A stretch of DNA of 32,489 nucleotides. Origin: Acidobacteriota bacterium (lineage in GTDB: Bacteria > Acidobacteriota > Terriglobia > Terriglobales > SCQP01). The position numbers were made by a program, and so were the translations under genes. Under the pieces are notes generated by a model. That model was not told the origin of the DNA and ran no database searches. It worked only from the letters and a program-made list of their open reading frames with translations. The stretch's first letter is position 1, and each line of letters begins with the position of its first letter. Below, piece after piece: positions 11,777-31,544 of this stretch. The DNA lies in contig JAJYIU010000010.1 in NCBI GenBank assembly GCA_021789895.1, forward strand, positions 33,246 to 65,734, read 5' to 3'.

Positions 11777-11921
11777 TGACATGTGAGTCACTGAGGAACG
11801 GCCGCCGGCAGTTATTAAGTCGGCAGCCGGACCCCGCGCAGCCTGGCGGACTCACCGAACGGGTTCTGTCATGGCCCTAGGGCTGAGCCCCCGCGGCGCG
11901 GAAGTGTCCCTGAAGAGGCCC

Positions 11922-12182
11922 ATGAAAATCATCATTGCCAATACCGATCGCCGCATCTCTCAGCGCTGCGCCGAATCCCTGGTCCAAAGTGGCGCGGCGG
12001 CCTGGTTGGAATGCGGCCGCCTCAAAATGACCTCCCGGCCCGGCGAAGAAGGCCAAATCTTTCGCTGGGGCAGCTTCAGCCATTTCGAATTGCCCGGCGA
12101 GCTTCGCTCCTTCCGCCATCTGGGTAATGTCCGCATGAACGGCTGCCTGATCAACCAGGCGGCGTCCGGCGATTTGCGGTGA
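11922..12182 (+). CDS. Small hypothetical protein, first gene of the phage-like series
   Basis: An 86-residue protein starting MKIIIANTDRRISQRCAESL, with no family I recognise. The ATG at 11922 has GAAGAGG 3 bases upstream; an in-frame ATG at 11871 would add 17 residues with no Shine-Dalgarno. The protein is basic and has no membrane segment. Its stop (12180-12182) lies just before the next gene, and an alternative GTG start of that gene would overlap it by four bases, so the pair is probably co-translated. Confidence 0.5.
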   Translation: MKIIIANTDRRISQRCAESLVQSGAAAWLECGRLKMTSRPGEEGQIFRWGSFSHFELPGELRSFRHLGNVRMNGCLINQAASGDLR

Positions 12183-12187
12183 CCTTT

Positions 12188-12595
12188 ATGTCTGCAGCTT
12201 TGCGTCAAATCTGGATCGCTCCCGAAATCGCCCTGGATGCCCGCGAGCGCAGCCTTCAGCTCCGCTACCGCCGCGAGCGCTGGCTGTTGATCGCCGTGCT
12301 GCAGCGCGCCATCGGCGATCTCTTCCGCCTCTTCGAAGACGTCGCCCCCGAAGATTACGACGACGCCCGCGCCTGGTTCTTCAGCCACTCTCGCGAAGCC
12401 TTTAGCTTTCGCTGGCTCTGCGAGCAGCTCAGCCTCAATCCCTCCGGCATTCGCCGCCACTTATGCAAGTGGATGCGCGCCGGCGCGCCCTTGTACCTGC
12501 GCCTTCAGCCGCTTCATTATCTCGCTTCCATGCCGGCGCTCGCCGGCATGGAAGACTTCCATATCGTGCCCGAATGGTTGCAAGAACATGCCTAG
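12188..12595 (+). CDS. Small protein with helix-turn-helix-like motif, phage type
   Basis: A 135-residue protein from the ATG at 12188; a GTG at 12179 overlapping the previous stop would add three residues. The segment DDARAWFFSHSREAFSFRW and then LCEQLSLNPSGIRRHL resembles a pattern seen in small phage proteins (a charged helix, FSF, W, then a predicted helix-turn-helix), so a DNA-binding or regulatory role is possible. This is resemblance by eye, not a confirmed family. The last eight bases overlap the next gene. A 13-bp perfect hairpin lies inside its 3' part (12525-12554). Confidence 0.55.
   Translation: MSAALRQIWIAPEIALDARERSLQLRYRRERWLLIAVLQRAIGDLFRLFEDVAPEDYDDARAWFFSHSREAFSFRWLCEQLSLNPSGIRRHLCKWMRAGAPLYLRLQPLHYLASMPALAGMEDFHIVPEWLQEHA
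12525..12554. repeat. Perfect 13-bp inverted repeat inside a coding region
   Basis: CTTCCATGCCGGC (12525-12537) and GCCGGCATGGAAG (12542-12554) are exact reverse complements separated by GCTC. It encodes part of the C terminus of the small HTH-like protein and lies about 35 bases before the start of the next gene. There is no U-run after it. Confidence 0.8.
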
Positions 12596-13766
12596 CTTTG
12601 CCTCGCTTTTGCGTCGTTGCCTGCTGCCCTGGTGGCTCTCCCTGCCGCTGGCCGCCGGCACTTTGGTCGGACACATCGTCCTGCCCATGACCTCGCATCC
12701 CCTCGCCGGCGCCACCTTGACCTTGACTCTCAGCCAGGCCGCGGTCGTGCCTGGCAGCTACATCCTGGCGCCGAAAAGTGTCGCCTGCTACACCACCACC
12801 GACGGTTCGCTGGTTGGACTGCCCGACCCCACCGTGCTCGTTTCCGCTCAAGCCCAGCCCGGCGTCGGTTCGCTTCCTGCCGGCCTGTACTTCATTCAAT
12901 GGACTTGGCTCTCGCCTTCCGGCGAGTCCCTCCCCAGCCCGGAATTGCAGCTCGAACTGACCTCGCCCGGCAAGCTGGAATTCCAGCCCCCGGCGAACCC
13001 GCCGTTCTCGGCCAACGGCTACGCCATTTATATCGGCGCCGCTGCCGGCGCCGAAACCCGGCAATACTCCGGCGCGCTGATCGCCTACACGCAATCCTCC
13101 CCGCTGGCCGCCGGCGCGGCGCCGCCCGCGCAAAACGCCTCGCTTTGTACGTTGAATTTCAACGACGACACCGTCCCCGCGCCCACTTATTATCTGGTCA
13201 ATCTGACCGACGCGGACGGCAATGAGATTGCCGGCTTTCCGCAAAGCTGGTATTTGAGCGGCGCCGTCCTCGATGTTTCTCAAATCGTGCCGCTCAGCTC
13301 CAGCCCCGCCCTGCTGTTTCCCATGCCGATTCTCAGCAACCCTTCCTCCTCCATGCCGCAAAGTGTCAATTCGCCGCTGCTGCTGAACGGCTATCCGCTT
13401 TCCGGTTCTTCCAACGTCGGCCCGGGGCTGTTGACGCTCGCCTTGCCCGGCACGCTGCCCGCGCCGGTCACCGTCCTCGATCAGTGGACTCCGAATGTCG
13501 CCATCGCGCTCACCCGTATCAGCCTGTTCGCTTCCCTGCCCGGTTCGGGGGGAACCAATGGCGTCTCGCTCGCCATAACCGACGGCGTCAATACCTGCAC
13601 TTTCGCCGCCCTGCTGCCCGCCGCCCAGGTGTTTTCCTCCAGCGGCACTCCTGCCGGCGTTTGTAATTTCAGCTCTGGTCTCCCGCTGACCTTGCAGCTC
13701 GCCGCCGACGACCATGCCACCCGCCCCGCCAATTTGAATTTGACCCTGGAGATGACTTCGCATTGA
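12588..13766 (+). CDS. Secreted fibre-like protein sharing a C-terminal module with the large spike
   Basis: A 392-residue protein with an N-terminal hydrophobic segment (about residues 8-30: RRCLLPWWLSLPLAAGTLVG) that looks like a signal peptide or membrane anchor. The rest is rich in Ser, Thr, Pro and small residues with beta-strand patterns. Residues 55-165 include FIQWTWLSPSGESLPSPE and GYAIYIGAAAGAETRQYSGA, like an FN3-type fold. The last 100 residues (IALTRISLFA..., VSLAITDG..., PANLNLTLEM) align by eye with the C terminus of the 1155-residue spike (22711-26178). A receptor-binding or fibre role is inferred. The start overlaps the previous gene by eight bases. Confidence 0.65.
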   Translation: MPSFASLLRRCLLPWWLSLPLAAGTLVGHIVLPMTSHPLAGATLTLTLSQAAVVPGSYILAPKSVACYTTTDGSLVGLPDPTVLVSAQAQPGVGSLPAGLYFIQWTWLSPSGESLPSPELQLELTSPGKLEFQPPANPPFSANGYAIYIGAAAGAETRQYSGALIAYTQSSPLAAGAAPPAQNASLCTLNFNDDTVPAPTYYLVNLTDADGNEIAGFPQSWYLSGAVLDVSQIVPLSSSPALLFPMPILSNPSSSMPQSVNSPLLLNGYPLSGSSNVGPGLLTLALPGTLPAPVTVLDQWTPNVAIALTRISLFASLPGSGGTNGVSLAITDGVNTCTFAALLPAAQVFSSSGTPAGVCNFSSGLPLTLQLAADDHATRPANLNLTLEMTSH

Positions 13767-13804
13767 CTCGCTGTTCGCTGGCTGCGCGTTGAGGATTTTT
13801 CGCC

Positions 13805-14275
13805 ATGATCACCCTGCAATTCAGCTCCACCTTCGACTGGGAATCGCGTGCCATTGGCTTTCTTACCCGCTCCTGGGCTAGCCGCGTGGAGGTCGTCTTC
13901 GCCGACGCCTGTCTCATCGGCTCGCTGCCTCCGCGCGGCGTCTGTCTGCATTCCCACCCCGCCGGTGGTTACCGCCGCGTCGAGCGCTATCGGGTGATGG
14001 TGCCGGCCGCCCCCGTTTACCGCTTCCTGCGCCGCCAGCTCGGCAAGCCCTTCGACTGGGGCGCGGTCTTGGGCTGGCCGCGCCGCCACTGGCGTGCCGC
14101 CGGCTCCTGGTCCGGCGCCGAGCTGATCGCCGCCGCCTTCGAGGCGGCCGGCACGCCGCTGCTGCGCGCCCCCGGACGCAGCCGCCGCCGCATCACCGCT
14201 CGCGACCTGTTGCTTTCGCCGCGTTTGCGGCCCTTCCCCCAGGCCAGCTTGCGTCCGCTGGCTTCCGCCGCGTGA
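13805..14275 (+). CDS. NlpC/P60 or YiiX-like protein, apparently lacking the catalytic cysteine
   Basis: A 156-residue protein. GKPFDWGAVLGWPRRHWRA, then SWSGAELIAAAFEAAGTPLL, resembles the permuted papain-like (NlpC/P60, YiiX) family found in phages, where a block like WFCSEL holds the catalytic Cys. Here the matching block is WSGAEL, with Gly where Cys would be, so peptidase activity is doubtful. The upstream GVCLHSHPAGGYRRVERY contains His residues that might be the catalytic His region. TGAGGA precedes the ATG by 9 bases. It may be a structural derivative of a peptidoglycan or lipid hydrolase; the assignment is by eye. Confidence 0.5.
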   Translation: MITLQFSSTFDWESRAIGFLTRSWASRVEVVFADACLIGSLPPRGVCLHSHPAGGYRRVERYRVMVPAAPVYRFLRRQLGKPFDWGAVLGWPRRHWRAAGSWSGAELIAAAFEAAGTPLLRAPGRSRRRITARDLLLSPRLRPFPQASLRPLASAA

Positions 14276-14285
14276 GAGTGCCGTC

Positions 14286-14639
14286 ATGAACTGGTCTCAT
14301 TGCCTCGCCTTCGCCTTTCGCCGCCGCGCTGAACTGGCCGACCTGCGCCAGCGCCTGGCTGCCCGCGAAGCCGAACTGGCTTGCCTGCGCCGCGCCTGCA
14401 ACGATTGGCGGATGCTCTGCGGCGAAGCCCGCCGCGATCTGCGCCGCCTCACCGACGCCTCGCTCGCCGCCGCCGGCGCCGAGCCCGTCTTTCAGCCGCG
14501 TCCGCGCCCGCCCGCGGCCGCCGAATTGCGCCCCATTCGCCGCCTGCGCGACTGGCGGCGCGAAATGGAGTTTCTCGAAGCTCAAGCCTTTGCTCGCGCT
14601 CAGCGCGGCGAATCGGCGCCTGGCCTCGCTTCCACGTGA
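14286..14639 (+). CDS. Small coiled-coil protein
   Basis: A 117-residue, Arg- and Ala-rich protein. Residues 12-60 (RRRAELADLRQRLAAREAEL...) have heptad-like spacing consistent with a coiled coil, and the second half has a Pro-rich linker and another helix (LRDWRREMEFLEAQAFAR). No family recognised. It starts 10 bases after the NlpC-like gene and is probably in the same operon. A spanin-like or virion-associated role is possible by position near the lysis genes, but no signal peptide or lipobox is seen. Confidence 0.5.
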   Translation: MNWSHCLAFAFRRRAELADLRQRLAAREAELACLRRACNDWRMLCGEARRDLRRLTDASLAAAGAEPVFQPRPRPPAAAELRPIRRLRDWRREMEFLEAQAFARAQRGESAPGLAST

Positions 14640-14811
14640 AGGGAAGGCTTCGCGCGCCGCTTTCCCGCCGCCTGGGTCGCCGGGCAGGGCGGGGTTGAGC
14701 CGCGGCGGTGGACCGTGCGGTTGTCACTCCCGCCGGTCTGGGGGCGAAACCGCCGCCGGCTCCCTCGTCGCGCGCCCGTGCCCGCTTTGTTGGAAAGACA
14801 GGGAAACGAAA

Positions 14812-15153
14812 ATGCCAAAATCCTCGCTGATTCATGTCCCCGCCGCCGGTTTTGTCCCGGTGGCCCTCACCTCCGGCATCCCCGCCCGCCGTGTCGAAAT
14901 CATGGAAGACGGCTCCGTCGCGCCGCAGGGGTTGATTGTGCAGCTCCCCGCCGACAACTTCGCCGTCAACGACGCCTACCCTTACTCGGCGCAACCCATC
15001 GAGCTGAAGGGCCCCGGCCGCGACGGAACGCTCGGACTGCCGCAGCAGGGCCAACCCGGCGCGGCCAATTTCCGCCCCGCGGATACCTACTGCCAGCTCA
15101 CTTCCGCCACCGCGACGCCCACCCTCGTGCGTCTGCTCGAGTTGGAAAGTTGA
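14812..15153 (+). CDS. Small beta-rich hypothetical protein
   Basis: A 113-residue protein starting MPKSSLIHVPAAGFVPVALT, with AGGGA upstream of the ATG. The frame is open further back to 14590 but overlaps the previous gene and has no better start. The content (VEIMEDGSVAPQGLIVQLP, PIELKGPGRDGTLGLP) suggests a compact beta-fold, as in phage decoration or minor virion proteins; this is only a suggestion. The stop TGA is part of a TGAGGA that serves as Shine-Dalgarno for the next gene. Confidence 0.55.
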   Translation: MPKSSLIHVPAAGFVPVALTSGIPARRVEIMEDGSVAPQGLIVQLPADNFAVNDAYPYSAQPIELKGPGRDGTLGLPQQGQPGAANFRPADTYCQLTSATATPTLVRLLELES

Positions 15154-15162
15154 GGACTTTGG

Positions 15163-15354
15163 ATGCCCTGGTACGATTTCCTCGCCGGCGCCCTGCCCGG
15201 GCTCGCCAGCCTTTTTGGCCTGATGTACGCCTTCGGCCGCCTCAGCCAAAAAGTGGACGTGCTCTGGCTCGCCGTCTTCAACCACCTCGGCCTCGACGAG
15301 CGGCAGCTCCTCTCCGAGTGGCGCCGCCGCCGCTTCCCTCCCCGCCATTCCTGA
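15163..15354 (+). CDS. Small membrane protein, candidate holin
   Basis: A 63-residue protein with one likely membrane helix (about residues 5-24, DFLAGALPGLASLFGLMYAF), possibly a second shorter hydrophobic segment (VLWLAVFNHLGL), and a strongly basic tail (EWRRRRFPPRHS). Size, charged C terminus and position directly before a lytic transglycosylase fit a holin that lets the lysin reach peptidoglycan. No family match is claimed. TGAGGA, overlapping the previous stop, lies 7 bases before the ATG, indicating coupled translation. Confidence 0.55.
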   Translation: MPWYDFLAGALPGLASLFGLMYAFGRLSQKVDVLWLAVFNHLGLDERQLLSEWRRRRFPPRHS

Positions 15355-15362
15355 GGTTTTCT

Positions 15363-15977
15363 ATGCGCATTGCCGATGATGTCCTCTTCCCGCTGCTCAC
15401 CCGTGCCGCCGCCGATACCGGGCTTGATGGATGGCTGCTGTACTCGCAAATCGAGCAGGAAAGCGATTTCGATCCCGCCTCCGTCTCTTCCTGTGGTGCG
15501 CTCGGCCTGATGCAGCTCATGCCCGCTACCTTCCCGCACTTCTCCCGCGCGCAGTTGCTCGATCCGGAAACCAATGTCCGCCTCGGCTCCCGCTTCCTGG
15601 CCGAGCTGCGGGATGCCTTTCAGCACGAAGATCCGGATGAGCGCCTGCGCTTTGCCCTGGCTGCCTACAATGGCGGGCTCGGCGCCGTGCTCCACGCCCA
15701 GGCCCTGGCCCTGCGCCGCGGCCTCAATCCCGCCTGCTGGGACGACCTCGCCCGCGTCTTCCCCGACGTCCGCCTCTTCTACGGCGGCGCCTGGCATACT
15801 CCCGACTACCGCCAGATTCTGGATTACGTCGCCCGTATCTGGCGCCACTATCAGCAGCGCCGCTCCCTTTCCTTGCCTCCGGCCGCCGCGCTTGCGCCCG
15901 CCGCCGGCGCTTCCGCTCCCTCCGCTTCCGCTACGCCCGCCGCGGCCCCGCCGGCCGCCGGCTCGGCCGTCTCCTGA
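15363..15977 (+). CDS. Lytic transglycosylase (SLT family), phage lysin or virion muramidase
   Basis: A 204-residue protein with a clear SLT/Slt70-like domain: IEQESDFDPASVS (catalytic Glu33 before Ser), CGALGLMQLMPATF (44-57) and FALAAYNGG (97-105). It cleaves the MurNAc-GlcNAc bond to give 1,6-anhydro ends. The last 40 residues are an Ala/Pro/Ser-rich tail. The frame is open far upstream, but the ATG at 15363 is supported by TGAGG overlapping the previous stop and by the domain beginning right after it. No signal peptide, so export depends on a holin or on packaging in the virion. The stop is immediately followed by the next ATG. Confidence 0.85.
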   Translation: MRIADDVLFPLLTRAAADTGLDGWLLYSQIEQESDFDPASVSSCGALGLMQLMPATFPHFSRAQLLDPETNVRLGSRFLAELRDAFQHEDPDERLRFALAAYNGGLGAVLHAQALALRRGLNPACWDDLARVFPDVRLFYGGAWHTPDYRQILDYVARIWRHYQQRRSLSLPPAAALAPAAGASAPSASATPAAAPPAAGSAVS

Positions 15978-16193
15978 ATGTTTATGAAACTCACCGCTGC
16001 CGCTCGCCGCCGCCTGCCCGAGTCCGATTTCGGACTCCCCGGGCGCAAATATCCCATGCCCGACCGCCGCCATGCCGCGCTCGCCCTCGCCCTCGCCCGC
16101 TTGCATCATGTCCCGCCCGAGGAACTCGCCGGCATCCGCCGCAAGGCCCACCGCCTCTTCCCGGATATGTCCATCGCCGGCCTCAAAGCCTGA
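15978..16193 (+). CDS. Small conserved phage-type protein
   Basis: A 71-residue protein, MFMKLTAAARRRLPESDFGL followed by PGRKYPMPDRRHAALALALARL, then ELAGIRRKAHRLFPDM. This pattern (short basic start, LPxSDFxxPGRxYPxxDxxHA, then a helix ending KxxRxFP) is shared with small proteins common in phage genomes, often near structural genes; their role is unknown to me. The ATG directly abuts the transglycosylase stop. Confidence 0.65.
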   Translation: MFMKLTAAARRRLPESDFGLPGRKYPMPDRRHAALALALARLHHVPPEELAGIRRKAHRLFPDMSIAGLKA

Positions 16194-16217
16194 TTGCCCG
16201 ATCGCAAAGGAGCCGTT

Positions 16218-16559
16218 ATGAACTTCTTCGGTAAAGTCTTCCACTCCGTCGGCCATATCTTTGCCTGGCTGCTGCACATCGGCCTGCCCAGGGCGGAATC
16301 CCTGGTGCAGGAAGCCGGCAAGGCCCTCCAGACCCCGCTCGCCCTCGCTCTCGCCGGCCTGCTCGGTCCGCAGGCCGTCGCCGTGCAATCCGCCCTGGAA
16401 GCCATCGCCGGCAACGTCCTCTCCGCTTTTCAGGACGCCGGCCAGGCCATCGCCGCCGGCGGACTGAACGTGCAATTCGATCAGAAAGTCATCGCCGATA
16501 TCCAACTGCTCTTTCACCTTATGCAGCAGGCGACCGTCGGCGCGCCGGCGAAAAAATAA
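16218..16559 (+). CDS. Small protein with hydrophobic central segment
   Basis: A 113-residue protein beginning MNFFGKVFHSVGHIFAWLLH, with an excellent AAAGGAG Shine-Dalgarno 5 bases before the ATG at 16218. The first 25 residues are aromatic and hydrophobic, and the middle (LALALAGLLGPQAVAVQSAL) could be an amphipathic or membrane helix. Similar small proteins occur in phage lysis or late regions, but no function is known to me. It is followed by a 110-base gap before the portal gene. Confidence 0.6.
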   Translation: MNFFGKVFHSVGHIFAWLLHIGLPRAESLVQEAGKALQTPLALALAGLLGPQAVAVQSALEAIAGNVLSAFQDAGQAIAAGGLNVQFDQKVIADIQLLFHLMQQATVGAPAKK

Positions 16560-16669
16560 TCCGCCCGCCGGCGCGGCTTCCTGGCAGTCCATCACGCTCG
16601 AATCGGGCCCCAGGCCTGCCGCCGCCTCGCCGCTGCGGTGAAGTCTCGATCCGTCGGTTCTGAGTTCTT

Positions 16670-19351
16670 ATGTCTTCGCTTCCCAATTCGTTGCTCTCGT
16701 CTCTGCCGCTGGGCGCGGACAGTGGCCAGGAACCCTCCCCTTCGGCGCTGGCTTCGGCCCCGCCCTCCTCCGCCACTTCCCCGCCCGCGGCCGGGATGGA
16801 CGCCGGCCTGCAGTCCGCCTTGCGCGATCTGGTGCTCCAGTACGAGCTCGAATGCGACGCCGTCCGCCGCCAATATGTGCGCCGCTTCCGCGAAGCCGAG
16901 GAATTCTGGCGCGGCAACCAGAATCTGTATTGGGGCGAACGCGATTTCCGCTGGCACACCCCCTTCGAGCAGGCGCTGGAGCGCGGCGCCGCCGCCGATC
17001 TGCCCCGCTACGATTACGTCACCAACATCTATCAGGCCTTCGGTTTGTCGGTCATTGCCGCCATCTCCCAGCGCATCCCCCGCGTGCGCTTCCAGCCCGT
17101 CTCCACCCTCAATGAATCCGATATCGCCACCGCCCGAGCCGCCGCTTTGGTCGCCGAGCTGATCGAGCGCAATAACCATATTGACCTGCTCACCATCCGC
17201 GAAGCCTATCTGCTCTGGACCCAGGGCATGTTTGGCGCTTACGTGCGCTATGTCGTGGATGAGGAATTCGGCACCCACCCCGAACCCGCCTACGCCATGA
17301 CTCCCACCCGGGTGCTGGCCGCCGGGTATCTCTGCCCCGCTTGCGGCTTCGAAATCCCCTCGCCCGCGCCCGGCGATACGCCCGGCGACGCGCCCGGCGA
17401 CGCGAACGGCGACACGGCCGGTGACGTGCCCGGCGACGCGGCTGCCGGGCCGTATGCTCCTTCGCCCGCCTCCGCTCCCGCCGGCGCCTCAACCGTAGAT
17501 CTTCCGGGCTGGTCCGTGCCCCCGCCCTCGCCCGCGGCCTCTGACTCCGCGCCCGCTCTCCTATCTGCCCCGCCGCTTCCCGCTTCTCCCGCTGCGGATT
17601 CCGTTGCCGGCCGCAGCTCTTCCTATTCCGCCTGGGTCTCCTCCACCACCGCCGCCGCCGCCGGTCCCGGCGCCTTCGCCGCCGCCGGGCCGCTGGCCGG
17701 TCCGCCTTCGCTGCCCGCTTGTTCCGCCTGCGGCGAACCTCTCGACGCCGCCGCCTGGCATCCGGACGAGTTCATGGATGTCCCCGTTGTCACCGGCTTT
17801 CAATCCGTCCCCAACGGCCAGGAGCGCATCTCCGTTTACGGCGGGTTGAACTTGAAAGTCATGCCCTTCGCCGGCGAACTGCGCCAGTCCGGCTATCTCA
17901 TCCTCGCCGAAGAACAGCATGTGGCCGCGCTCCGCGCTGCCTATCCTGCCGCCGCCGAGCGCATCTCCGCCGGCAACGCCGGTGCTGGAGAAACTTACGA
18001 GCGCCTCTCCCGTCTCGCCCTGCTCGAGCCCCCCGGCGCTCCCGCCGGCTCGCTGCCCTACTCCTCCCTGGTTACGTATAAGCGTTGCTGGCTCCGCCCC
18101 TGGGCCTTCTGGGCGCACACCGATCCCGATATTCGCCGCCGCCTGCTCGAACTTTTTCCGGAAGGTTGCATGGTCGCCTTCGCCGGCGACGTCTTCCTCG
18201 AAGCCCGCCCCGAGCGCCTCGACGATCATTGGCGCATCTGCCGCGCCATGCCCGGCGCCGGCATGTACACCGAGCCCATCGGCGCCTCCATCGTCAGCAT
18301 CCAAAAACGCGTCAACGATCTGGCCAATATTCAGGCCGAGCATGTCGAGTACGGCGCCGCTCCGCCCATCCTCTATGACGCTCGCTATATCAACGGCCAG
18401 GCGCTGGCCAACAAGCGCATGGAGCCGGCCAGCTATACCCCGGTTGTTATCGAAGCCAATGGCGGCAAGCCGCTCGCCGATCTCATCTTCCAGCCCCGCA
18501 TCGGCCTCGATCCCAGCATCTATGCCCAGGGCCAGAATCTGGTCGAGCTAGCCCAGTTCCTCACCGGCGCCTTCCCCGCCGTCTTCGGCGGCTCCATGCA
18601 GGATGTTTCCACCGCCACCGGCTACGGCATGGCTCGCCAGCAGGCCCTCGGCCGCCTCTCTCTCTTCTGGCGCCAGATCAAACAGTTTCACGCCGATCTC
18701 ATGCTCGCCGCCGTCAACGTCTTTCGCTGCAACCGGACCCAGGATGTCGAACAGGTACTCTTCCATCGCTCCGGCGATTTCGCTTCCCGCTTCATACACC
18801 TTGGCGACTTGCAGGGCAACGTCACCGTCCATCCCGAGGCCGACGCCTTCCCCGTCTCCTGGTCCGACATCCGCCAGAATGTGCTGCAGCTCCTGCAATC
18901 CTCCGATCCTTATATTCAAAACCTGCTCGCCCATCCGCTCAATGCCGAGCAGGTCAAAAACTATCTCGGCGCCCCCGGTTTCATCCTCCCTGAAGACGAT
19001 AATCGCTCCAAGCAGTTCCGCGAGCTTGATCTGCTGCTTCGCTCCGAGCCCGTTTTCGATTCCGCCCGCAGCGTCTGGCTCCCCACCGTGCCCACCGACC
19101 CGCTCGTGGACGATCATGCCGTTCACCTCCAAACCTTGCGCGAATGGGCCGTCTCCGATGACGGCATCTCGGCCAAGCAAGCCAATCCCGCCGGCTACGC
19201 CAATGCCATGGCCCACCTGCTCCAGCACCAGCGCGATTTCTCGTCTGCCGCAGCGGCCGGCCCTCCTCCCGCCGCTGCCCTTCATTCCATCCGGCAACGC
19301 GCCGCGCCCCCTGATCGCCAGCGGAAACCTATGCCGCCTTCGCATCCCTGA
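16670..19351 (+). CDS. Phage portal protein with split zinc-ribbon-like motif
   Basis: An 893-residue protein. The core (residues about 500-760: SIVSIQKRVNDLANIQAEHV, AQFLTGAFPAVFGG, GYGMARQQALGRLSLFWRQI, then KQFHADLMLAAVNVFR) has the helical pattern of the portal stem and wing of P22-like and related podovirus portals. The portal forms a dodecameric DNA channel at one capsid vertex. Its position just before scaffold and major capsid genes supports this. CPAC at 222-225 and CSAC at 351-354 look like the halves of a zinc ribbon, separated by about 125 residues of Ala/Pro/Ser/Gly-rich sequence that includes six GDxx repeats (17372-17443). The start ATG has only GAG upstream within GAGTTCTTATG, a leader shared with another gene at 22400. 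It is longer than typical portals, mainly because of this insert and the N- and C-terminal tails. Confidence 0.8.
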   Translation: MSSLPNSLLSSLPLGADSGQEPSPSALASAPPSSATSPPAAGMDAGLQSALRDLVLQYELECDAVRRQYVRRFREAEEFWRGNQNLYWGERDFRWHTPFEQALERGAAADLPRYDYVTNIYQAFGLSVIAAISQRIPRVRFQPVSTLNESDIATARAAALVAELIERNNHIDLLTIREAYLLWTQGMFGAYVRYVVDEEFGTHPEPAYAMTPTRVLAAGYLCPACGFEIPSPAPGDTPGDAPGDANGDTAGDVPGDAAAGPYAPSPASAPAGASTVDLPGWSVPPPSPAASDSAPALLSAPPLPASPAADSVAGRSSSYSAWVSSTTAAAAGPGAFAAAGPLAGPPSLPACSACGEPLDAAAWHPDEFMDVPVVTGFQSVPNGQERISVYGGLNLKVMPFAGELRQSGYLILAEEQHVAALRAAYPAAAERISAGNAGAGETYERLSRLALLEPPGAPAGSLPYSSLVTYKRCWLRPWAFWAHTDPDIRRRLLELFPEGCMVAFAGDVFLEARPERLDDHWRICRAMPGAGMYTEPIGASIVSIQKRVNDLANIQAEHVEYGAAPPILYDARYINGQALANKRMEPASYTPVVIEANGGKPLADLIFQPRIGLDPSIYAQGQNLVELAQFLTGAFPAVFGGSMQDVSTATGYGMARQQALGRLSLFWRQIKQFHADLMLAAVNVFRCNRTQDVEQVLFHRSGDFASRFIHLGDLQGNVTVHPEADAFPVSWSDIRQNVLQLLQSSDPYIQNLLAHPLNAEQVKNYLGAPGFILPEDDNRSKQFRELDLLLRSEPVFDSARSVWLPTVPTDPLVDDHAVHLQTLREWAVSDDGISAKQANPAGYANAMAHLLQHQRDFSSAAAAGPPPAAALHSIRQRAAPPDRQRKPMPPSHP
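17372..17443 (+). repeat. Six 12-bp tandem repeats inside the portal gene
   Basis: Six imperfect copies of a GGCGACGCGCCC-like unit encode GD followed by two variable small residues (TP, AP, AN, TA, VP, AA). They lie in the low-complexity insert between the two CxxC motifs. The unit keeps frame, so copy-number change would only lengthen or shorten the linker. Confidence 0.85.
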
Positions 19352-19403
19352 TTTGCTGCCGTTGAATGTTCCACCGTCGGCTGACCGCTGATTTGAGGAA
19401 ATC

Positions 19404-20852
19404 ATGACCCCTGCTTCCGCTTCCGACCTTGAATTGCTCTCCGCCCCCGAAGCGCCGGCCGCTGCTGTCCCGCCGGCTGCGGAAACCATTCCCGATTCCG
19501 CTCTGCCGGCCGATCCGGCTCCGCCTTCGGGCGCTCCGCCTGAAACGCCGGCTGTCGCCGGTCCGGCGGTTGCCGCTGAACCGCCCGCCGCCGCCGCCTC
19601 GTCGGGCGCAGCCTCTGGCCCCGGCTCAGCCCCCGCCGATGCCGCTTCCGCCATCGCAGTGCCCGACCCGCTCGCGCCCTTCTCTTCCGCCCTGGCCGAC
19701 GATGCCGCATTGCAGCAGGCGCTCGCCCGCCATCCCGAATTGCAGCCGGCCATCGAATCCGCCCTGCGCCAGAGTGCCGAGTTTCAATCGTGGCGCAGCC
19801 TTTTCCCCTCGCTTCAGGCCGCTCGCTACGCCGCCGATCAGTCTGAAACCCTGTCCGGATTCGATCGCCTGTTTTACTCCGATCAGCCCGAAGCCGCCCG
19901 GGAGCTCTTGTTCCGGCTCTATCACAATCAGTTCCTGCGCGACCCCGAATCCGGCGAGTTGATGCGCGACGCCGCCGGCGATCCCGTCTCCACCGGCGCG
20001 TACGACCGCCTCGCCTCCGCCTGGCGCGATTCCCTGTTCTCGGCGCTCGACCATCACGCCGCCGAGTCCGCTGACCGTGAGTTGTCCTCCGCCCTTCAGA
20101 CCCTCCGCTCCCGCCTGGCCTCCCTGGCCGGCAATCCTTCCGCGGCCCCGCCTGCCTCCGCGCGCGCCGCACTCGATCCCTCCGCGGCTCCGGCATCTTC
20201 CTCGCCTGTCTCCGGCAATTCCCCTCTTTCTCCCATCCCGCCAGGCGAGTCCGGAGCCGCTCCCTCCCTCCCTCCCGATGTCCGCGCTCGCCTCGAACGC
20301 CTCGAGGCCCTGGAGCACCGCCTCGAATCCAGCGGGCGCGAGCAGTGGCGCGCCTGGCATGAGGGTCTGGCCGGCGATGTCGCCCAATCCGTTCGCGCCG
20401 AGATCGAACAGACGCTGGCTCCCGCCGCTCTGCCCGCCTACTTGAAATCCAAGGTCGTGGATGACGTGCTCGACGGCATCAACCAACGCGCCGCCGCCGA
20501 TGGCGCCTATCAGCACCGCATCCAAACCCTGCTCCGCGCCGCGCAGGCGCAGTCCGCCGCCGGCGCCGCCGCCCCGCCCGATACCCGCGCCCGTATCCTC
20601 GCCGCCGCCCGCGCCCAGGCCCGCGCCCATCTCGCCCCCGTCGCCCAGCAGGTCCTCCGCCACGCCCTCGCCGGGCTGCGCGAGGCGCAGCAGCAGCGCC
20701 TCGCCAAAGTCGCCGGGCAGCGCGCCAAAGTCGAGGTCAAAAGCGCCGGCGGCGATCCGAACCCCGCCCGTCATACCGATGTCGAGCGCATCCGCGGCGC
20801 CGAGCGCGCCCTCGGCCGCCGCCTCTCCGACCGCGAAATCCTGGATCTCTGA
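19404..20852 (+). CDS. Capsid scaffolding-like protein
   Basis: A 482-residue, Ala/Pro/Glu/Arg-rich protein between portal and capsid genes, the usual place of phage scaffold. The first 80 residues are low-complexity. The middle is helical (LEALEHRLESSGREQWRAWH, RAEIEQTLAPAALPAYLKSK), and the C terminus is basic and charged (DPNPARHTDVERIRGAERAL, then GRRLSDREILDL). Scaffold proteins use a helical C terminus to bind coat protein during procapsid assembly and leave before maturation. The assignment rests on position and composition, not on a sequence family. GAGGAA is 3 bases upstream of the ATG. Confidence 0.65.
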   Translation: MTPASASDLELLSAPEAPAAAVPPAAETIPDSALPADPAPPSGAPPETPAVAGPAVAAEPPAAAASSGAASGPGSAPADAASAIAVPDPLAPFSSALADDAALQQALARHPELQPAIESALRQSAEFQSWRSLFPSLQAARYAADQSETLSGFDRLFYSDQPEAARELLFRLYHNQFLRDPESGELMRDAAGDPVSTGAYDRLASAWRDSLFSALDHHAAESADRELSSALQTLRSRLASLAGNPSAAPPASARAALDPSAAPASSSPVSGNSPLSPIPPGESGAAPSLPPDVRARLERLEALEHRLESSGREQWRAWHEGLAGDVAQSVRAEIEQTLAPAALPAYLKSKVVDDVLDGINQRAAADGAYQHRIQTLLRAAQAQSAAGAAAPPDTRARILAAARAQARAHLAPVAQQVLRHALAGLREAQQQRLAKVAGQRAKVEVKSAGGDPNPARHTDVERIRGAERALGRRLSDREILDL

Positions 20853-20989
20853 TCGCGGTTCGCTGCTGGCTGTTGGTTTATCTTTTTCCCCGACCGCGGC
20901 CGTCCCGCTCTGCGGGCCTTGCCGAATGTTGTCTATTTCCCGCTGCCGGCGCTCCGCCGTCAGTGCTGCTTGGTACTGAGTACACGCTT

Positions 20990-22228
20990 ATGCCTTTGCA
21001 AAACTCTCAGGTGGTCGCCCTGCAGCTCGAAAAGGTCCGGCCCAAGCTGCCGGTGCTCTACGAGCGCGACGACACCTTCTTCTCCCTCATCCAAAAACGC
21101 GAAGTGGACCGCGTCTCTACCCGCACCGCCCGCATCCCGCTCCAGGTCCAGCCCGGCGGCTCCTTCGGCTACGCCTCCTTCGACGGCGGCGATCTGGGAC
21201 GCGGCTCCGGCACCGCCTACGACTACGCTCAAATCACTCCCGTCGGCATCCGCATGGCGGTCGAGATCACCAAGTTGGTCGAGTACGCCACCGATGCTTC
21301 CGACAAGGCCATTGAAAACGCCGCCAAGCGCAACGTCGCTGACGCCATGAAGCAGTTTCGCCACGACCTCGATGCCGCCCTGCAGACCGCCGGCAATGGT
21401 GTCTTCGGCGCCGTCTCCGCCATCAACGGCTCGACCCTGACCTTAACCAATACTCCTTACGGCGCCCGCCTGCTGCGCGAAAACATGAGCGTGCAGGTCT
21501 ACGACTCGACCTTGGCCACCAACCGCGGCTCCGCCGTCATCAGCTCCGTCGCCAAAGGCCTCGGCCAGGCGCAAAGCATCGTCGTCAATGCCGTCCCCGC
21601 CGGCACGGTCGCCGGCGACCAACTGGTCGTGGATGGCGTCTCCGGCGCCAATCCCACCTTCCTCTACGGCATCCCTTACCACCACAACACCGCCACCGCC
21701 GGCACCTGGATGGGCATCAGCCGCGCCAATGCCTATGCCGTCGCCAACGGCGTCAATGCCAATAACGCCGCCCTCACCCTCCCTCCCATCCGCCTGGCCT
21801 TTAACCAGATCCGCCAGTCGCTCGGCCTCGACAGCCTCGGCAGCCTCATCTGGCATGGACACCCGGCGCAGGTGGCCGCCTACGAGGAACTCGGCTTCGT
21901 CATCAGCGAAATCGAAAAAGGCGGCGCCAATCAGGACCTCGATCTGCTGTTCAAAAACAAAACCATGGGCGGCGTCCGCGTCAAGGAAAACATCCACGCC
22001 GATACCACCCGCCTCGACCTGATCAACCTCGAAACCTGGGGCCGCGTCGAATGGTTGCCGATTGACTTCTATGAAATCGGCGGCTCCACCGTCTTCCCCG
22101 TTTACGGCGCTTCCGGCGGTCTGGCCGCCAGCTATCTGTTCTATCTCGTCACCGGCGTCCAGTTCTTCGTGGATAACCCCAAGGCCGTCAGCTCGGTCAC
22201 CAACCTGGCCCTGCCCGCCGGCTACTGA
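20990..22228 (+). CDS. Major capsid protein
   Basis: A 412-residue protein starting MPLQNSQVVALQLEKVRPKL. The frame is open 39 codons further up, but that part is not protein-like and the ATG at 20990 fits capsid N termini. Features typical of HK97-fold coat proteins of podoviruses: N-terminal helix with PLQVQPGGSFGYASFDGGDL, the central VEYATDASDKAIENAAKRNV and ADAMKQFRHDLDAALQTAGN helices (spine-helix-like), and the C-terminal segment ALTLPPIRLAFNQIRQSLG, SLIWHGHPAQVAAYEELGF, TVFPVYGASGGLAASYLFYL. It follows scaffold and is followed by a strong terminator, as expected for the most abundant protein. The family assignment is by pattern and position. Confidence 0.8.
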   Translation: MPLQNSQVVALQLEKVRPKLPVLYERDDTFFSLIQKREVDRVSTRTARIPLQVQPGGSFGYASFDGGDLGRGSGTAYDYAQITPVGIRMAVEITKLVEYATDASDKAIENAAKRNVADAMKQFRHDLDAALQTAGNGVFGAVSAINGSTLTLTNTPYGARLLRENMSVQVYDSTLATNRGSAVISSVAKGLGQAQSIVVNAVPAGTVAGDQLVVDGVSGANPTFLYGIPYHHNTATAGTWMGISRANAYAVANGVNANNAALTLPPIRLAFNQIRQSLGLDSLGSLIWHGHPAQVAAYEELGFVISEIEKGGANQDLDLLFKNKTMGGVRVKENIHADTTRLDLINLETWGRVEWLPIDFYEIGGSTVFPVYGASGGLAASYLFYLVTGVQFFVDNPKAVSSVTNLALPAGY

Positions 22229-22268
22229 TCTGGAAATCAAGACCGTTGCTTTTTTGAACGACTGCATT

Positions 22269-22309
22269 CGGGGCCGCCGCCTGGCCGCTTTGCCGCGGCC
22301 CCGTTTTTT
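22269..22309 (+). terminator. Intrinsic terminator after the major capsid gene
   Basis: CGGGGCCGC (22269-22277) pairs perfectly with GCGGCCCCG (22295-22303) across a 17-base loop and is followed by TTTTTT (22304-22309). It lies about 40 bases after the capsid gene stop and separates it from the next gene pair. Confidence 0.85.
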
Positions 22310-22399
22310 GGCGCTTCGGGCGTCGCTTCGGCTTGCGCCTGCTGCCGGCCGCCTGCAAGCGCGGCCGGCGCATCGCTGCTGTCTGGATTGAGAGTTCTT

Positions 22400-22714
22400 A
22401 TGCCGCGTTCTCCTGCGGATCCGTCTGCAACGTTCTCTTTCTTTTACGCTATGCTGCGGCTCGAATCCCGGCCTCACGACCGCGCCGCTCAATTGCGCGC
22501 CGTGCGCGCCGAAATCGGCCTCGCGAAAAAATCTGGCTATGTCGCCGCCTTGGCCGGCATCCCGGTTGCCGAGCTGTCTGCCCTGGTGGCCGCGGGAATT
22601 CGCTTGTCTCCCCGCCCCGCTGCTGCCCTTCCCGCCCGCCTGGCCGCGCGCCGGGCCCAGCTCGGCTGCGTGCTGGAACACCCCTCCAAGCTCGAAAAAA
22701 GGTTGCCGCTATGA
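22400..22714 (+). CDS. Small hypothetical protein coupled to the large spike gene
   Basis: A 104-residue, Ala/Arg-rich protein starting MPRSPADPSATFSFFYAMLR, mostly helical, with no family I recognise. The ATG sits in the leader AGAGTTCTTATG, nearly identical to that of the portal gene. Its stop overlaps the spike start as ATGA (22711-22714), so spike translation probably depends on it. It could be a spike chaperone or assembly protein judging by coupling, but nothing in the sequence shows this. Confidence 0.55.
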   Translation: MPRSPADPSATFSFFYAMLRLESRPHDRAAQLRAVRAEIGLAKKSGYVAALAGIPVAELSALVAAGIRLSPRPAAALPARLAARRAQLGCVLEHPSKLEKRLPL

Positions 22715-25700
22715 AATCCCTCCTCGCCTGCCTCGCCGCGTTCTGCCTGGCCGCCGCCCCGCTCGCCGCGCAAACCGATTTCGTCAAACCTTTGATCGCC
22801 GGTCAGGCCATTGCCAGCCAGTTCAATTGGCGCATTGGCGCCACCGTCCAGTCCACTGCCGGCGGCTCGGGCGTCATCACCTTCGATCTTTCCTATATCG
22901 TCTTGCCCGATTCGACCCAGTACACCCCCTGGCAGCCGGGCTTGCCCGTCACCATCCAGGATGGCGCCTCCACCGAAACCGTCACCCTCACCAGCGTCTC
23001 CTGCTCCTCGCTCTCCGGCCAGGCCTGCACCGCCACCGCGAACTTCCAATTCGCCCACGATGCCCATCTCCAGGTCGTCAGCGGCACCGCCGGCCTGCAG
23101 GAAGCCATTGATCTGGTGAATAGCCATGGCGGCGGCACGGTCATCGCCGATCCCGCCTGGACCGGCGCTTCCGCTCAGATCGCCGCCGCCGCCGGCGCCG
23201 CCGGCGTCCTGCTCGAAGATGACCGCAATGGCCGCCAGATTTGGTATGCCTGGAATGGCTCTGCCTTTGCCCCGCAGTTGAATCTCAATGCCGCCGACGC
23301 CGCCCTGACCCTGCAATCGGTTAACGGCGTGCTCGATGCCGCGCAGAATGGCGGCGTCTATTCGTCCTGCCTCAAAGCCGCCCCCGCCGGTCAGATCGTC
23401 GAGCTTCCCCAGGGCGATGTCGAAACGCTGACGGTCAACACCGTCATCCCCCCGGCTTGCGTGGTGCAGGTGGATGCGGGCGCCCTCATCAGGCTCGCTG
23501 GCTTTTCCTTTGCCGGCTACGTGCGCGCCGGAGACTGGAAAATTTTCGATCTGTCCGGCGGTGGCTCCGTAAACCTGAACGATAATCTGGTCAATCCGGC
23601 CTGGTTCGGCGCCGCCGGCTCGGCGGTGGAAGGAACCGTTACCACGACGGCCGGAAGTTCGACCGCGACCTTGGGAAGTTGCGCCAATATCATTACCACT
23701 GCCGCTGCCGTTTGCGATTTTTCTGCCGGACAAGGCTTCGACATTCCGCATGCCGGCGCAACCAGCGCCTTGTTGGCGCCCACCTTCACGGCCGTTCCTT
23801 ACACCTACTCGGAAAACCCGGAGCCTTTGGCTTCGCTGTCGGATGCAACCACCGGCTGCCGGATCGGCTCGGGCGCGATCTATCCCGATCACGCAACCGC
23901 GCTGAATACGTCGTGCAGCGGGAACACGGCGACCTACGAAGTCGCGGAAGTGGATGCCAATGGCGGCGCCGGACCGCCCTCCAGCCCGGTTACGATCACT
24001 GCTAATGTCCCCGGGCATTTGGATACCAACAACAGCATCCATCTTGCCATTACGAAAAACGGCTCGCCCAGCGCCTATTTGATTTACTCGTGCTATACGG
24101 CATCGTGCACGCCGGTATTGAATGCCGTGATGCCGGCGATCACGAATGTCTATTGGGACGTGGGTGAGAGCTTTGGCCGGGATGAGCTGTACGGGACGGC
24201 CCTGCAAGCTGGGGCAACCGGCGATGATTTGCAAGGCACGATCAGCTCGGTAAGCGGCTCGACGATTACGCTCTCGACCCCCGCCCGGCAAACCGGATCG
24301 TTCTTGCTTCACCACGATGATTCGGCGGCGCTGCTGGCGGCGATTAAGTCGGTGGCGGCCAGTCCCTCGGGCAATGGCACCCTCGGCGGCGGGACCGTCC
24401 AGGGCGGTTTGGGCGCGGTTTACCAGATCGGCGCGAATGACTTTAATATCTACAACCAATGGGGCTGGAATTTGATCGGGCGCTCTCAGTACTCGCCGGT
24501 TATCGCTTACGTCGGCGGAGCGGGAGGTTACGCTGCCGAGATGAATTATGTCTTTAAAGCGCGCCTGAGCAATTTTGAATTCGTCTCGCCAAGCTCGCCC
24601 GCCTGGGGCGTAATGGTGGATGATTTGGGCAGTCCGGGAGCCTTGAATACCAAGCAGGTTGTGCTGGATAATTTGGCTTTTGTCAGTTATGGCAATTTAC
24701 AGGGCGGCGGTGGCTGCATTGCTATGGAGCCCTTCGAGACGGTTGGAAATGGTGAGCTTGAGACTCTCCATGATATTGATTGCCATTGGTTTTCTTATAT
24801 GGGTTTCTATTGGGGCGGGAATGGTGAAACTTATAATGAAATCCAAAGTAAAACCCTGGATACGGCGTCGGTCTTTGCCAACTATATTCATGGGGTGGGA
24901 AGCATCAAATTCAAAAACACCAACGAGGAGTTTAATGATTTTGGCTGGTATACCGACGCCGATTTTGGGAATGGCAGTGGCACGCTGTCCATTGATGCCG
25001 ATGTGCTGGAGAATGTGCAGTACGCTTTTTATGAGCCGAACTCGCCCTCCGGCGTGCTGAATATCAAAGGCTCGCGCTGGATGCCCCACCCCGGCGACGA
25101 TGGGTACGCCGCCTGGCTGCAGGCGCCGATGTCCGCCTCGTCCTTTATTTTGTGCGGGTATTCTGCCACCACCTGCAATATCGAAATTGGCAGTGCCAAT
25201 GAAGTATTTAACGGCGTTCTGTTCGGCAACGATCAAACCAGATTTGCGGGCGGTGGTTGGGCCGCCACGCCGCGCAACCTGCCGATTGAATCAAGCGCGA
25301 CCAATAGTGCTCCTGCGAATTTTTCCTGTATTGGCTGCTCCACCTATACGAATGGCGGCGCCACGGTCTTGCAGGGTGCCAATTTCTGGGGGGCTTTCAA
25401 CGCCGCCAATTCCTCTTCTTTCAAAATCCCGAATAGCTGGACCAACGCCGGCGGACAGACGGTCAGCACCCCCGCCGGCGCGGCCAGCAATACTGTCGTG
25501 CCGCTGGCTTCTGCCGCCGCTCACGAATGGGTGAGCTATGCCGACAGCGGCGGCGTGCAGCACCTGGCCCAGCCGGCGTTTTCGGATATTTCCGGCGTGC
25601 TGGCGTCGGCGCAGTGCCCCGCCCCCAACTCGGCCACCCCGGGCTGCATCGAATCGGCCGCGCCGGTCGCGCATCAGTGGCTCGCCGCCATCTCCACCGC

Positions 25701-26178
25701 CGGCGTCCCCTCCCTCAGCCAGCCCGCGGCCGCCGATCTGAGCGATGGCATCACCGGCAGCGGTCATGTGGTGCTGGCAATTTCGCCGGCTCTTTCCTCG
25801 CCGGCCTTGACCGCTCCGGCCATTGGCGGGGAAACCATTTCCTCCTCCCCGCGCATCCTTTACTCCGCCTTCGTCCCGGCCTTGACTTCTACCCTCACCG
25901 CCGCCGACTGGATCCCCGACAAGGCGATTACCGTCACTCGCCTCCAGGCTCAGGCCCAGACCGCCCCCGCCGGCTGCACCACCAATGCCGTCGTCCAGCT
26001 TACCGATGGCGCCTCTCCCCTGGGCCTCGCCATTGCCGCCGCCGCCGCCGATTCCGGCCCCATCAGCCAAAACTACTCCGCCGGTGCGTCCCTGGCACTG
26101 AGTGTTTCCACCGCCGCTGCCGGCTGCACTATCAACCCGGCGAATTTGACCATCATCGTCCAATACCGTATGCAATAA
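22711..26178 (+). CDS. Large tailspike/fibre-like protein with signal peptide and compositionally distinct centre
   Basis: An 1155-residue protein starting at the ATGA overlap. Residues 1-21 (MKSLLACLAAFCLAAAPLAAQ) look like a Sec signal peptide cut after AAQ or AQT, unusual for a virion protein. Residues about 90-290 include GLQEAIDLVNSHGGGTVIAD and other segments typical of the start of right-handed beta-helix (pectate-lyase-like) tailspikes, such as GQIVELPQGDVETLTVN. Residues about 620-870 (LSNFEFVSPSSPAWGVMVDD, LNIKGSRWMP) look like beta-helix rungs. The C terminus (about 1050-1155, ADWIPDKAITVTRLQ..., PANLTIIVQYRMQ) aligns by eye with that of the protein at 12588-13766. Bases about 23,560-25,340 are much less G+C-rich than both ends, indicating exchange of the binding domain. 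It probably recognises or degrades a surface polysaccharide. Confidence 0.75.
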   Translation: MKSLLACLAAFCLAAAPLAAQTDFVKPLIAGQAIASQFNWRIGATVQSTAGGSGVITFDLSYIVLPDSTQYTPWQPGLPVTIQDGASTETVTLTSVSCSSLSGQACTATANFQFAHDAHLQVVSGTAGLQEAIDLVNSHGGGTVIADPAWTGASAQIAAAAGAAGVLLEDDRNGRQIWYAWNGSAFAPQLNLNAADAALTLQSVNGVLDAAQNGGVYSSCLKAAPAGQIVELPQGDVETLTVNTVIPPACVVQVDAGALIRLAGFSFAGYVRAGDWKIFDLSGGGSVNLNDNLVNPAWFGAAGSAVEGTVTTTAGSSTATLGSCANIITTAAAVCDFSAGQGFDIPHAGATSALLAPTFTAVPYTYSENPEPLASLSDATTGCRIGSGAIYPDHATALNTSCSGNTATYEVAEVDANGGAGPPSSPVTITANVPGHLDTNNSIHLAITKNGSPSAYLIYSCYTASCTPVLNAVMPAITNVYWDVGESFGRDELYGTALQAGATGDDLQGTISSVSGSTITLSTPARQTGSFLLHHDDSAALLAAIKSVAASPSGNGTLGGGTVQGGLGAVYQIGANDFNIYNQWGWNLIGRSQYSPVIAYVGGAGGYAAEMNYVFKARLSNFEFVSPSSPAWGVMVDDLGSPGALNTKQVVLDNLAFVSYGNLQGGGGCIAMEPFETVGNGELETLHDIDCHWFSYMGFYWGGNGETYNEIQSKTLDTASVFANYIHGVGSIKFKNTNEEFNDFGWYTDADFGNGSGTLSIDADVLENVQYAFYEPNSPSGVLNIKGSRWMPHPGDDGYAAWLQAPMSASSFILCGYSATTCNIEIGSANEVFNGVLFGNDQTRFAGGGWAATPRNLPIESSATNSAPANFSCIGCSTYTNGGATVLQGANFWGAFNAANSSSFKIPNSWTNAGGQTVSTPAGAASNTVVPLASAAAHEWVSYADSGGVQHLAQPAFSDISGVLASAQCPAPNSATPGCIESAAPVAHQWLAAISTAGVPSLSQPAAADLSDGITGSGHVVLAISPALSSPALTAPAIGGETISSSPRILYSAFVPALTSTLTAADWIPDKAITVTRLQAQAQTAPAGCTTNAVVQLTDGASPLGLAIAAAAADSGPISQNYSAGASLALSVSTAAAGCTINPANLTIIVQYRMQ

Positions 26179-26333
26179 CCGTCTTCGCTCCTCGCCGGCG
26201 GCTGCATCGCCGCCGCGTGAGTGTTTAAAAACGACGCGGCTTCTGCCGTTACAACCTTGCTCAGGCTTGGCCGCGGGCATTGCAGCGATCGCTTCGCTGG
26301 CCCTGCTGGCTGCCGGCTGATTGTGTTTCCTGT

Positions 26334-27008
26334 ATGTTTCGTGATGACATTCGCGGCCGTCTCGCTCCCCCCTGGGCGCAGGCGCTGCTCCTCCGCCGCT
26401 ACGGACGCACCCCCTTCGGCGAGCCCCGCTTCCGCCTCGTCTGGGCCCCTTCCCGGCTCGAACGCTCCGGCGGCATCTGGTGCGATTTTGATTCCTGCCG
26501 CCTCCTCCGCCGCCGCCCTTCTTTGCGCTGGGTGCCGAAATACCCCGGCGAGTCCTGCTGGCTCATCGAAGCCTGGTTGCCCAACTCCGCTTATGGCTCT
26601 CCTGCCCTTTGGTATTCGCCGCAAGCCGCCGGGGGCACCCGGCTCTCGACTCCGGCCGGACCCATCCTCGCCCTCGGCGATTACCCCGCCTTCGGCGACT
26701 TTGAAGATATCGGCGCCCGTATGCATTGGTATCCTTCCGAACGCCACCTTGCCCTGGCCGTGGATTATTGGCTGTTTCAACGCAACCGCGTCCCCGCCAA
26801 TCCCCGTGCCGCCCTCGCCCGCCGCGTCGCCGCCGTCGCCGCGCGCCTCGCCCAAAACGAACGCGAGAATGATGCCTTCTGCGCCGCCGTGCTCGCCGAT
26901 GCCGATCAGGCCTTTCACGGCGCCCCCATGTCTGGCTATGGCGGCGCTCATCGCCCCAGTTCCGTCGAATTTTGCGAGCGCCTCGGCATTCGCTCGCACC
27001 CGTTTTGA
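26334..27008 (+). CDS. Conserved phage-type hypothetical protein
   Basis: A 224-residue protein starting MFRDDIRGRLAPPWAQALLL. The pattern RTPFGEPRFRLVWAPSRLER followed by SGG, then RWVPKYPGESCWLIEAWLPN and SAYGSPALWY, then LALGDYPAFGDFEDI, is one I associate with proteins encoded near podovirus head and neck genes (tyrosine- and tryptophan-rich, YGxP and WxPSR blocks). Its function is not known to me. The C-terminal half is helical (RVAAVAARLAQNERENDAFC). The start was chosen at the ATG at 26334 because the family-like region begins soon after; the frame is open to 26280. Confidence 0.6.
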   Translation: MFRDDIRGRLAPPWAQALLLRRYGRTPFGEPRFRLVWAPSRLERSGGIWCDFDSCRLLRRRPSLRWVPKYPGESCWLIEAWLPNSAYGSPALWYSPQAAGGTRLSTPAGPILALGDYPAFGDFEDIGARMHWYPSERHLALAVDYWLFQRNRVPANPRAALARRVAAVAARLAQNERENDAFCAAVLADADQAFHGAPMSGYGGAHRPSSVEFCERLGIRSHPF

Positions 27009-27067
27009 AGCCGCATTCTGCTTTGCCGGGTATTTTTCTGCCCCGGCTTTCTCTGAAGGAGTCTGCC

Positions 27068-28044: not shown

Positions 28045-28722
28045 ATGGAGTCATCCCAAATCTTTAACTTGATCCGCAGCCTGCTCGACGACCCCTTGGC
28101 CGATTGGACTCATAACGACTACCTCGAGCCCTTCTTCAACCTCGCCTGCCGCAACCTCCAGATGGAATTGGGCGCCTACGGCCTGGTCGAAGATGTCTCC
28201 GAAATCATCCTGCCCAATCTCCCCGCGGGCACCACCTCGCTCGCCTCCTTCACCAACCCCGGTCAGCCGCTCGCCACCATGTGGCAGCCCTTGGAACTCT
28301 TCGAGCGCCCCGTCGGCGCTGACGATACCGCCTGGCAAATCCTGCGCCAGGTTTCCACCATCCCCAGCCTGCCGCCGCAGCCGGCGTTCGGCTTTTGGGA
28401 ATACCGCGCCGGAGAAATCGTCCTCCCGCCCAATGCCCAGCCCCTGGATCTCCGCGTGCGCTTCGAGTCTTTGCTCCCGATCGTCAGCGAGCCTTACCAG
28501 CCGCTGCGCTTGGTGGGCAGCTCCCATATCCTCGCCTATGCCGCCGCCGCCTTGGTCGCGCGCAGCCGCGGCAACGAAAACCTGGCTCTCTCCCATGCCG
28601 CCGAGGCCCAGCGCCAATGCCAGCTCCTGCTGCTGCATCTCAACCGCAACCGCCAGATGCTCTCCATCCGGCCGCGCCCGTTCCGTGAAAATTACGCCCA
28701 ATACTCGCGCCTGATCTCCTGA
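28045..28722 (+). CDS. Head-tail adaptor protein (P22 gp4-like by position)
   Basis: A 225-residue protein. The start MESSQIFNLIRSLLDDPLAD, then THNDYLEPFFNLACRNLQME, and the later PFGFWEYR-like block (QPAFGFWEYRAGEIVLPPNA) with helical C terminus (HILAYAAAALVARSRGNENL) fit adaptors that dock under the portal ring. Similar proteins in short-tailed phages seal the DNA and hold the tail. The identification comes mainly from position between capsid and beta-propeller-like genes, so it is moderate. The ATG has GAGAG about 6 bases upstream. Confidence 0.6.
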   Translation: MESSQIFNLIRSLLDDPLADWTHNDYLEPFFNLACRNLQMELGAYGLVEDVSEIILPNLPAGTTSLASFTNPGQPLATMWQPLELFERPVGADDTAWQILRQVSTIPSLPPQPAFGFWEYRAGEIVLPPNAQPLDLRVRFESLLPIVSEPYQPLRLVGSSHILAYAAAALVARSRGNENLALSHAAEAQRQCQLLLLHLNRNRQMLSIRPRPFRENYAQYSRLIS

Positions 28723-31445: not shown

Positions 31446-31544
31446 TGCGCGTCAAAAAATGCGGATTGTTGTTGGCTGATCGCCGCTCGTAATCGCTGCG
31501 GCATGTCGTTGGCGGTTGATGAGTTATTGATCGGGAGCTTGGTT

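Follow-up and report, generated by a model that had tools for sequence, protein, structure and literature searches.

The spike and fibre proteins of a phage-like module in the genome of a soil bacterium (Acidobacteriota), and those of related phages, are probably exported and disulfide-bonded before use, to judge from their sequences and those of their homologues. We tentatively favour, at just short of an even chance, a reading in which two of these proteins, a 1155-residue spike and a 392-residue protein (p392), would be Sec-exported, receptor-binding-type fibres of a short-tailed-phage-like particle encoded by a domesticated cluster, and would be docked when lysis mixes the cell compartments. 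Ordinary phage tail parts are both synthesized and put together intracellularly, and the known podovirus tailspikes and fibres of the P22 type are cytoplasmic products that lack signal peptides.

Organization of the phage-like module

The window, i.e. the whole stretch of 32,489 nucleotides that was analysed (G000:C36:33246-65734; 54-72% GC), lies within a 111,746-base contig and contains the host genes recJ, hslU and hslV and an XdhC-family gene. The phage-like module begins at about position 11,871, is about 25 kb long, has all its genes in the same direction and extends beyond the end of the window as far as a terminase gene (L002:2588-4084; Terminase_6N, 4e-7; PHROG 979, 4.5e-47); a homoserine-kinase-like GHMP kinase gene and a threonine-synthase-like gene lie beyond the terminase. 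The module features within the window, where several structural genes are named from position alone, are as follows.

11871-12595, + strand: pair of small genes (103 aa, 138 aa), left module end
12588-13766, + strand: p392, fibre-like protein of 392 aa; leader 12588-12656 (aa 1-23), mature from aa 24
13805-15153, + strand: small module genes (156-, 117- and 187-aa ORFs), present in some relatives
15363-15977, + strand: transglycosylase SLT domain protein (PF01464, 8e-21)
16670-19351, + strand: presumed portal protein (size, position, conservation)
19404-20852, + strand: presumed scaffold protein (position; weak PHROG 206 match, E 0.044)
20990-22228, + strand: presumed major capsid protein (position and conservation)
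22711-26178, + strand: spike/fibre protein of 1155 aa; leader 22711-22770 (aa 1-20)
27068-27973, + strand: p333, conserved, with zinc-ribbon-like cysteines
28045-28722, + strand: p225, conserved module protein
29372-31426, + strand: p684, virion structural protein (PHROG 3287, 1.3e-10)
31509-32426, + strand: 305-aa module protein

No match was obtained for the presumed portal in Pfam and PHROG searches, for the presumed major capsid protein in a PHROG search, or for the presumed portal and the spike among the named phage records searched. Between the spike and p333 genes, a 242-aa frame (26280-27008) resembles the gene found there in relatives and was preferred over the overlapping GTG ORF 26221-27105.

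Leaders of the spike, p392 and their homologues

N-termini were scored with a strict home-made rule with its own thresholds, comprising a charged n-region, an uncharged hydrophobic core and an A-x-A-like end. The true start of the spike is ATG 22711, the listed ORF 22333-26178 (from TTG 22333) being a mechanical maximum only; this ATG is preceded at 8 nt by AAAGG, and an unverified ORF, 22401-22714, ends on it in an ATGA overlap. Translation from here begins with MKSLLACLAAFCLAAAPLAAQTDFVKPL, and the spike's leader and junction (MKSLLACLAAFCLAAAPLAA↓QTDF, the arrow marking the cleavage site) pass the strict rule, showing the positive n-region, hydrophobic core and small residues at -3/-1 of a Sec leader with a signal peptidase I site. 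The p392 gene starts at ATG 12588, which overlaps the gene before, and its leader and junction read MPSFASLLRRCLLPWWLSLPLAA↓GTLVGHIVLP. Taken alone, this leader fails the strict rule; in the orthologues of six related genomes, a diverged hydrophobic leader ends just before a conserved GT[LI]xG[RK], and four of these six leaders pass. The proposal of the preliminary description that both proteins start with a real signal-like segment was thus confirmed, by the rule for the spike and through its orthologues for p392. Its caveat that the true starts might lie downstream of the hydrophobic segments was also checked, and such starts were rejected because they fall inside conserved domains: the next in-frame start of the spike, TTG 22792, lies within the domain that begins at about residue 21, and the alternative p392 start, ATG 12687, would truncate the GT[LI]xG[RK] domain. 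Besides a weak PHROG match of p392 (8040, E 1.5e-4), a search of an Acidobacteriota phylum-wide sample with this protein matched its own genome only.

Relatives of the spike were drawn from whole genomes, IMG/VR and GTDB contigs, and those of p392 from family genomes and IMG/VR; the genomes include metagenome-assembled ones (MAGs) with fragmented contigs, and the contigs bearing spike relatives are titled Acidobacteria, Acidobacteriaceae or Terriglobia. The strict rule was passed by 46 of the 59 complete homologous fibre ORFs from Acidobacteriota clusters and IMG/VR phage contigs, as compared with 2 of 120 core virion/packaging proteins, orthologues of the core module proteins (Fisher 3e-28, a P that overstates independence, related sequences being counted as cases), and with 18 of 892 internal ATGs (2%). 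Most of the fibres that fail the rule have a leader evident by eye, e.g. MKIYLLSLLTLLLWTRVPAQ. Sec-type leaders are therefore conserved in the homologous fibres of related phages, a check that the preliminary description had called for. Among homologues the leader sequence varies while the mature start is retained, the A-x-A↓Q-type leader ends match those of host exported proteins on the same contigs, and leaders also occur on different fibres encoded elsewhere in sister modules. In the modules and phage contigs that were inspected, we noticed no leaderless fibre candidate.

Domain architecture of the spike

The spike is divided into three regions.

22771-23355, + strand: N-terminal domain, directly behind the leader (iterated HMM; predicted beta-rich)
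23461-25353, + strand: middle, about aa 251-881, presumed receptor-binding part
25819-26175, + strand: C-terminal domain, about aa 1037-1155

An iterated HMM built from spike residues 21-215 and run against 2,931 ORFs found the N-terminal domain (about 195 aa) in 23 proteins, and in all 23 a leader lies directly upstream, called by the rule in 20 and evident by eye in 3. The invariant residues of the domain include a cysteine and the motif GLQE, and comparison with Pfam and PHROG gave no match. AlphaFold2 modelled this domain of the spike alone well, as a mostly confident beta-rich fold over approximately residues 11-178 (mean pLDDT 75 overall); the p392 model was too poor for use. Neither a fold search (nothing below E 0.001) nor a PDB sequence search yielded a match, and the best VIA-align match, to a Klebsiella K1 capsule lyase (Z 8.0, rmsd 2.4, 74 residues), is uninformative because these 74 residues are a common small barrel.

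Both ends of the spike are conserved in a same-genus homologue (split over two contigs), and the middle has no detectable similarity to it. The C-terminal domain has two invariant cysteines in the alignment and resembles the C-terminus of p392. The spike shares with podovirus tailspikes a conserved N-terminal domain with an exchangeable remainder; it had no Pfam, PHROG or PDB match that would mark it as a depolymerase. One genome, G281, carries three different spikes (L045:6308-17022) that have a common N-terminal domain, a leader of their own each and different positions in the module.

Cysteine content of the mature fibres

An even cysteine count was found in 21 of 22 mature fibres of a hand-picked set. 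In an automatic set of 26 representatives (<50% identity) the count was even in 21 (P 0.0012), and in 24 (P 5e-6) once three cleavage sites had been moved by hand to the evident downstream junction; of the core proteins that have at least three cysteines, 22/45 showed an even count. The mature spike has 20 cysteines, and four cysteines of p392 are conserved across seven orthologues. The module's own genome encodes, on the same contig, VKOR (G000:C36:367-744; L169), a member of a disulfide-making family. Exported bacterial proteins are known to favour even cysteine numbers (PMC7678975). Since leaders and paired cysteines are essentially limited to the fibre/spike proteins, the fibres are probably exported and disulfide-bonded before use.

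Related phage contigs

The IMG/VR contigs with p392 relatives (45-58 kb) contain DnaB-like helicase or replication-initiation genes, and a terminase was found in two of them. They have an apparently similar series of structural genes together with rows of leader-bearing fibres, and their core genes lack leaders, one weak call excepted. Because phage contigs with replication genes also bear leader-carrying fibres, exported fibres are not confined to the vertically inherited module described below. GroEL-like chaperonins were recognized by eye in two of the related IMG/VR contigs that have leader-bearing fibres (L184:6182-7786 and L179:85-1779).

Inheritance of the module within its bacterial family

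Of the same-family genomes searched, 12 out of 14 have a terminase homologue (62-87% identity) and 10 out of 13 the presumed portal, counts that are limited by MAG incompleteness; in the other-family genomes of the same searches neither was found, one weak terminase match (35% identity) excepted. The side with thrC and the homoserine kinase gene is common to five genomes, including the present one, and a sixth has these genes at the other end; the left flank varies between genera. In trees of the terminase, presumed portal, capsid and p684 the family holds together and the well-supported pairs agree with hslU, the disagreement concerning G281 and G652. For one same-genus pair, with dS partly saturated, module dS (0.6-1.1; 1.6 in one small gene) is similar to host dS (0.7-1.3), and the module dN/dS of 0.13-0.28 indicates purifying selection. 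No integrase, replication or repressor genes were found among the module ORFs scanned with Pfam and PHROG, several of which had no match of any kind. The distribution, synteny and host-like dS disfavour a recent ordinary prophage. The cluster probably descends from a phage lineage, has been kept by vertical inheritance and is either gene-transfer-agent-like or domesticated in some other way. A literature search of partial coverage found no report of a gene transfer agent in Acidobacteriota.

A related module has a patchy distribution in genus g29, whose 36 genomes contain p684 homologues that are full-length in 10 cases and contig-cut in 4, and a few fragments. In two sister genomes a TAG stop lies within the match to the C-terminal part of the presumed portal (G649:C49:21111-21344 and G653:C152:4205-4450; L125, L126). 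In the same-genus module, L094 (G648:C31), a short tandem repeat occurs at two places, one upstream of p684 and one close to the terminase, in ORFs that read LCALRSALCALRSALCAL....

Discussion

Export and disulfide bonding of the fibres are well supported by sequence comparison. Of the options that the preliminary description had left side by side, export by the host draws on the conserved leaders, the mature domain just after the cleavage site, the even cysteine numbers and VKOR; membrane insertion of a virion protein fits poorly with the A-x-A↓Q-type leader ends; and domestication applies to the whole, apparently vertically inherited cluster but not to the spike and p392 alone. In the mechanism that we tentatively favour, spike and p392 would be translated within the structural operon and directed by their leaders to Sec, the leader would be cleaved near A↓Q in the spike and A↓G in p392, and the cysteines would pair outside the cytoplasm, all of which are steps that the sequences support. 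The proteins would then fold outside the cytoplasm and, once lysis mixes the compartments, may use the conserved N-terminal domain to dock onto cytoplasmically assembled heads or tails, the presumed outcome being particles with disulfide-stabilised spikes. We infer docking because of the structural operon, the conserved N-terminal domain, the unmatched middle of the spike and the absence of any leaderless fibre among those noticed; the literature searched contained no known case of a Sec-exported virion fibre of a tailed phage.

The main and close rival, somewhat less probable in our estimation, is that the exported proteins are not on particles and serve as polysaccharide-active enzymes, superinfection-blocking decoys or adhesins, whether periplasmic, surface-bound or released into the medium. 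The signals and the cysteine pattern would suit any extracytoplasmic protein, phage contigs carry arrays of several paralogous exported fibres, and there are precedents in the Bdellovibrio MAT fibres (PMC10769870), Pantoea WceF (PMC7949094) and XepA (PMC6834076). However, a short-tailed phage requires a receptor-binding protein, for which no leaderless candidate was noticed, the conserved N-terminal domain with its exchangeable remainder looks like a docking domain, and the fibre genes lie within the structural operon. Some leaders are long, e.g. MIRSKIAMGFLWALLALVLHVIPGVVGPTHAQ, as might be expected if the hydrophobic N-terminus were an uncleaved membrane anchor or entry segment of a virion protein assembled in the cytoplasm, but we consider this improbable in view of leader ends like those of host exported proteins on the same contigs, a mature domain that begins just after the junction and the even cysteine counts. 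Least likely is that G+C-rich coding yields signal-like, Ala/Leu-rich N-termini by chance: the window is G+C-rich and its p392 leader alone is borderline, but the low pass rates of core proteins and internal ATGs led us to reject chance hydrophobicity, and the leaders are conserved across taxa.

With P22-type tailspikes the spike has in common a conserved N-terminal domain, a variable middle, a conserved C-terminal domain and a gene in the structural operon, whereas the spike/p392 fibres differ from them in their leaders and even cysteine numbers, and have no PDB sequence match. The Bdellovibrio MAT fibres have a conserved beta-rich domain of about 130 aa right after the signal peptide and, by description, resemble the module fibres in combining these elements with a variable phage-like fibre into a chimera, but they are cell proteins for predation, unlike fibres encoded in phage structural operons (PMC10769870). 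Pantoea WceF, an enzyme, is likewise an exported protein, with a tailspike-like fold; it is, however, Tat-exported and belongs to a biofilm synthesis operon outside phage modules (PMC7949094). The PBSX prophage protein XepA is also exported during phage development, and is absent from mature PBSX particles, but it is a lytic-cassette protein and not a fibre (PMC6834076). The cluster as a whole resembles RcGTA-like gene transfer agents (PMC6821227) in its vertical retention within a clade, purifying selection and structural and packaging genes, and no integrase was found among the ORFs scanned; it derives from a different phage lineage.

A broader scheme, which we regard as doubtful, is that tailed phages of one Acidobacteriota-infecting lineage have Sec-made, periplasm-oxidised receptor-binding fibres that are joined to particles only at lysis, with one branch having become a vertically inherited, gene-transfer-agent-like element of an acidobacterial family and still exchanging its spike. 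The near-universal module in one family makes a gene transfer agent candidate for Acidobacteriota, where we found none described. If the fibres do not reach particles, phages would encode sets of secreted recognition proteins. If they do reach particles from the periplasm, the assembly of tailed phages would not be wholly cytoplasmic, and exported, disulfide-bonded spikes would be the design of a whole phage lineage.
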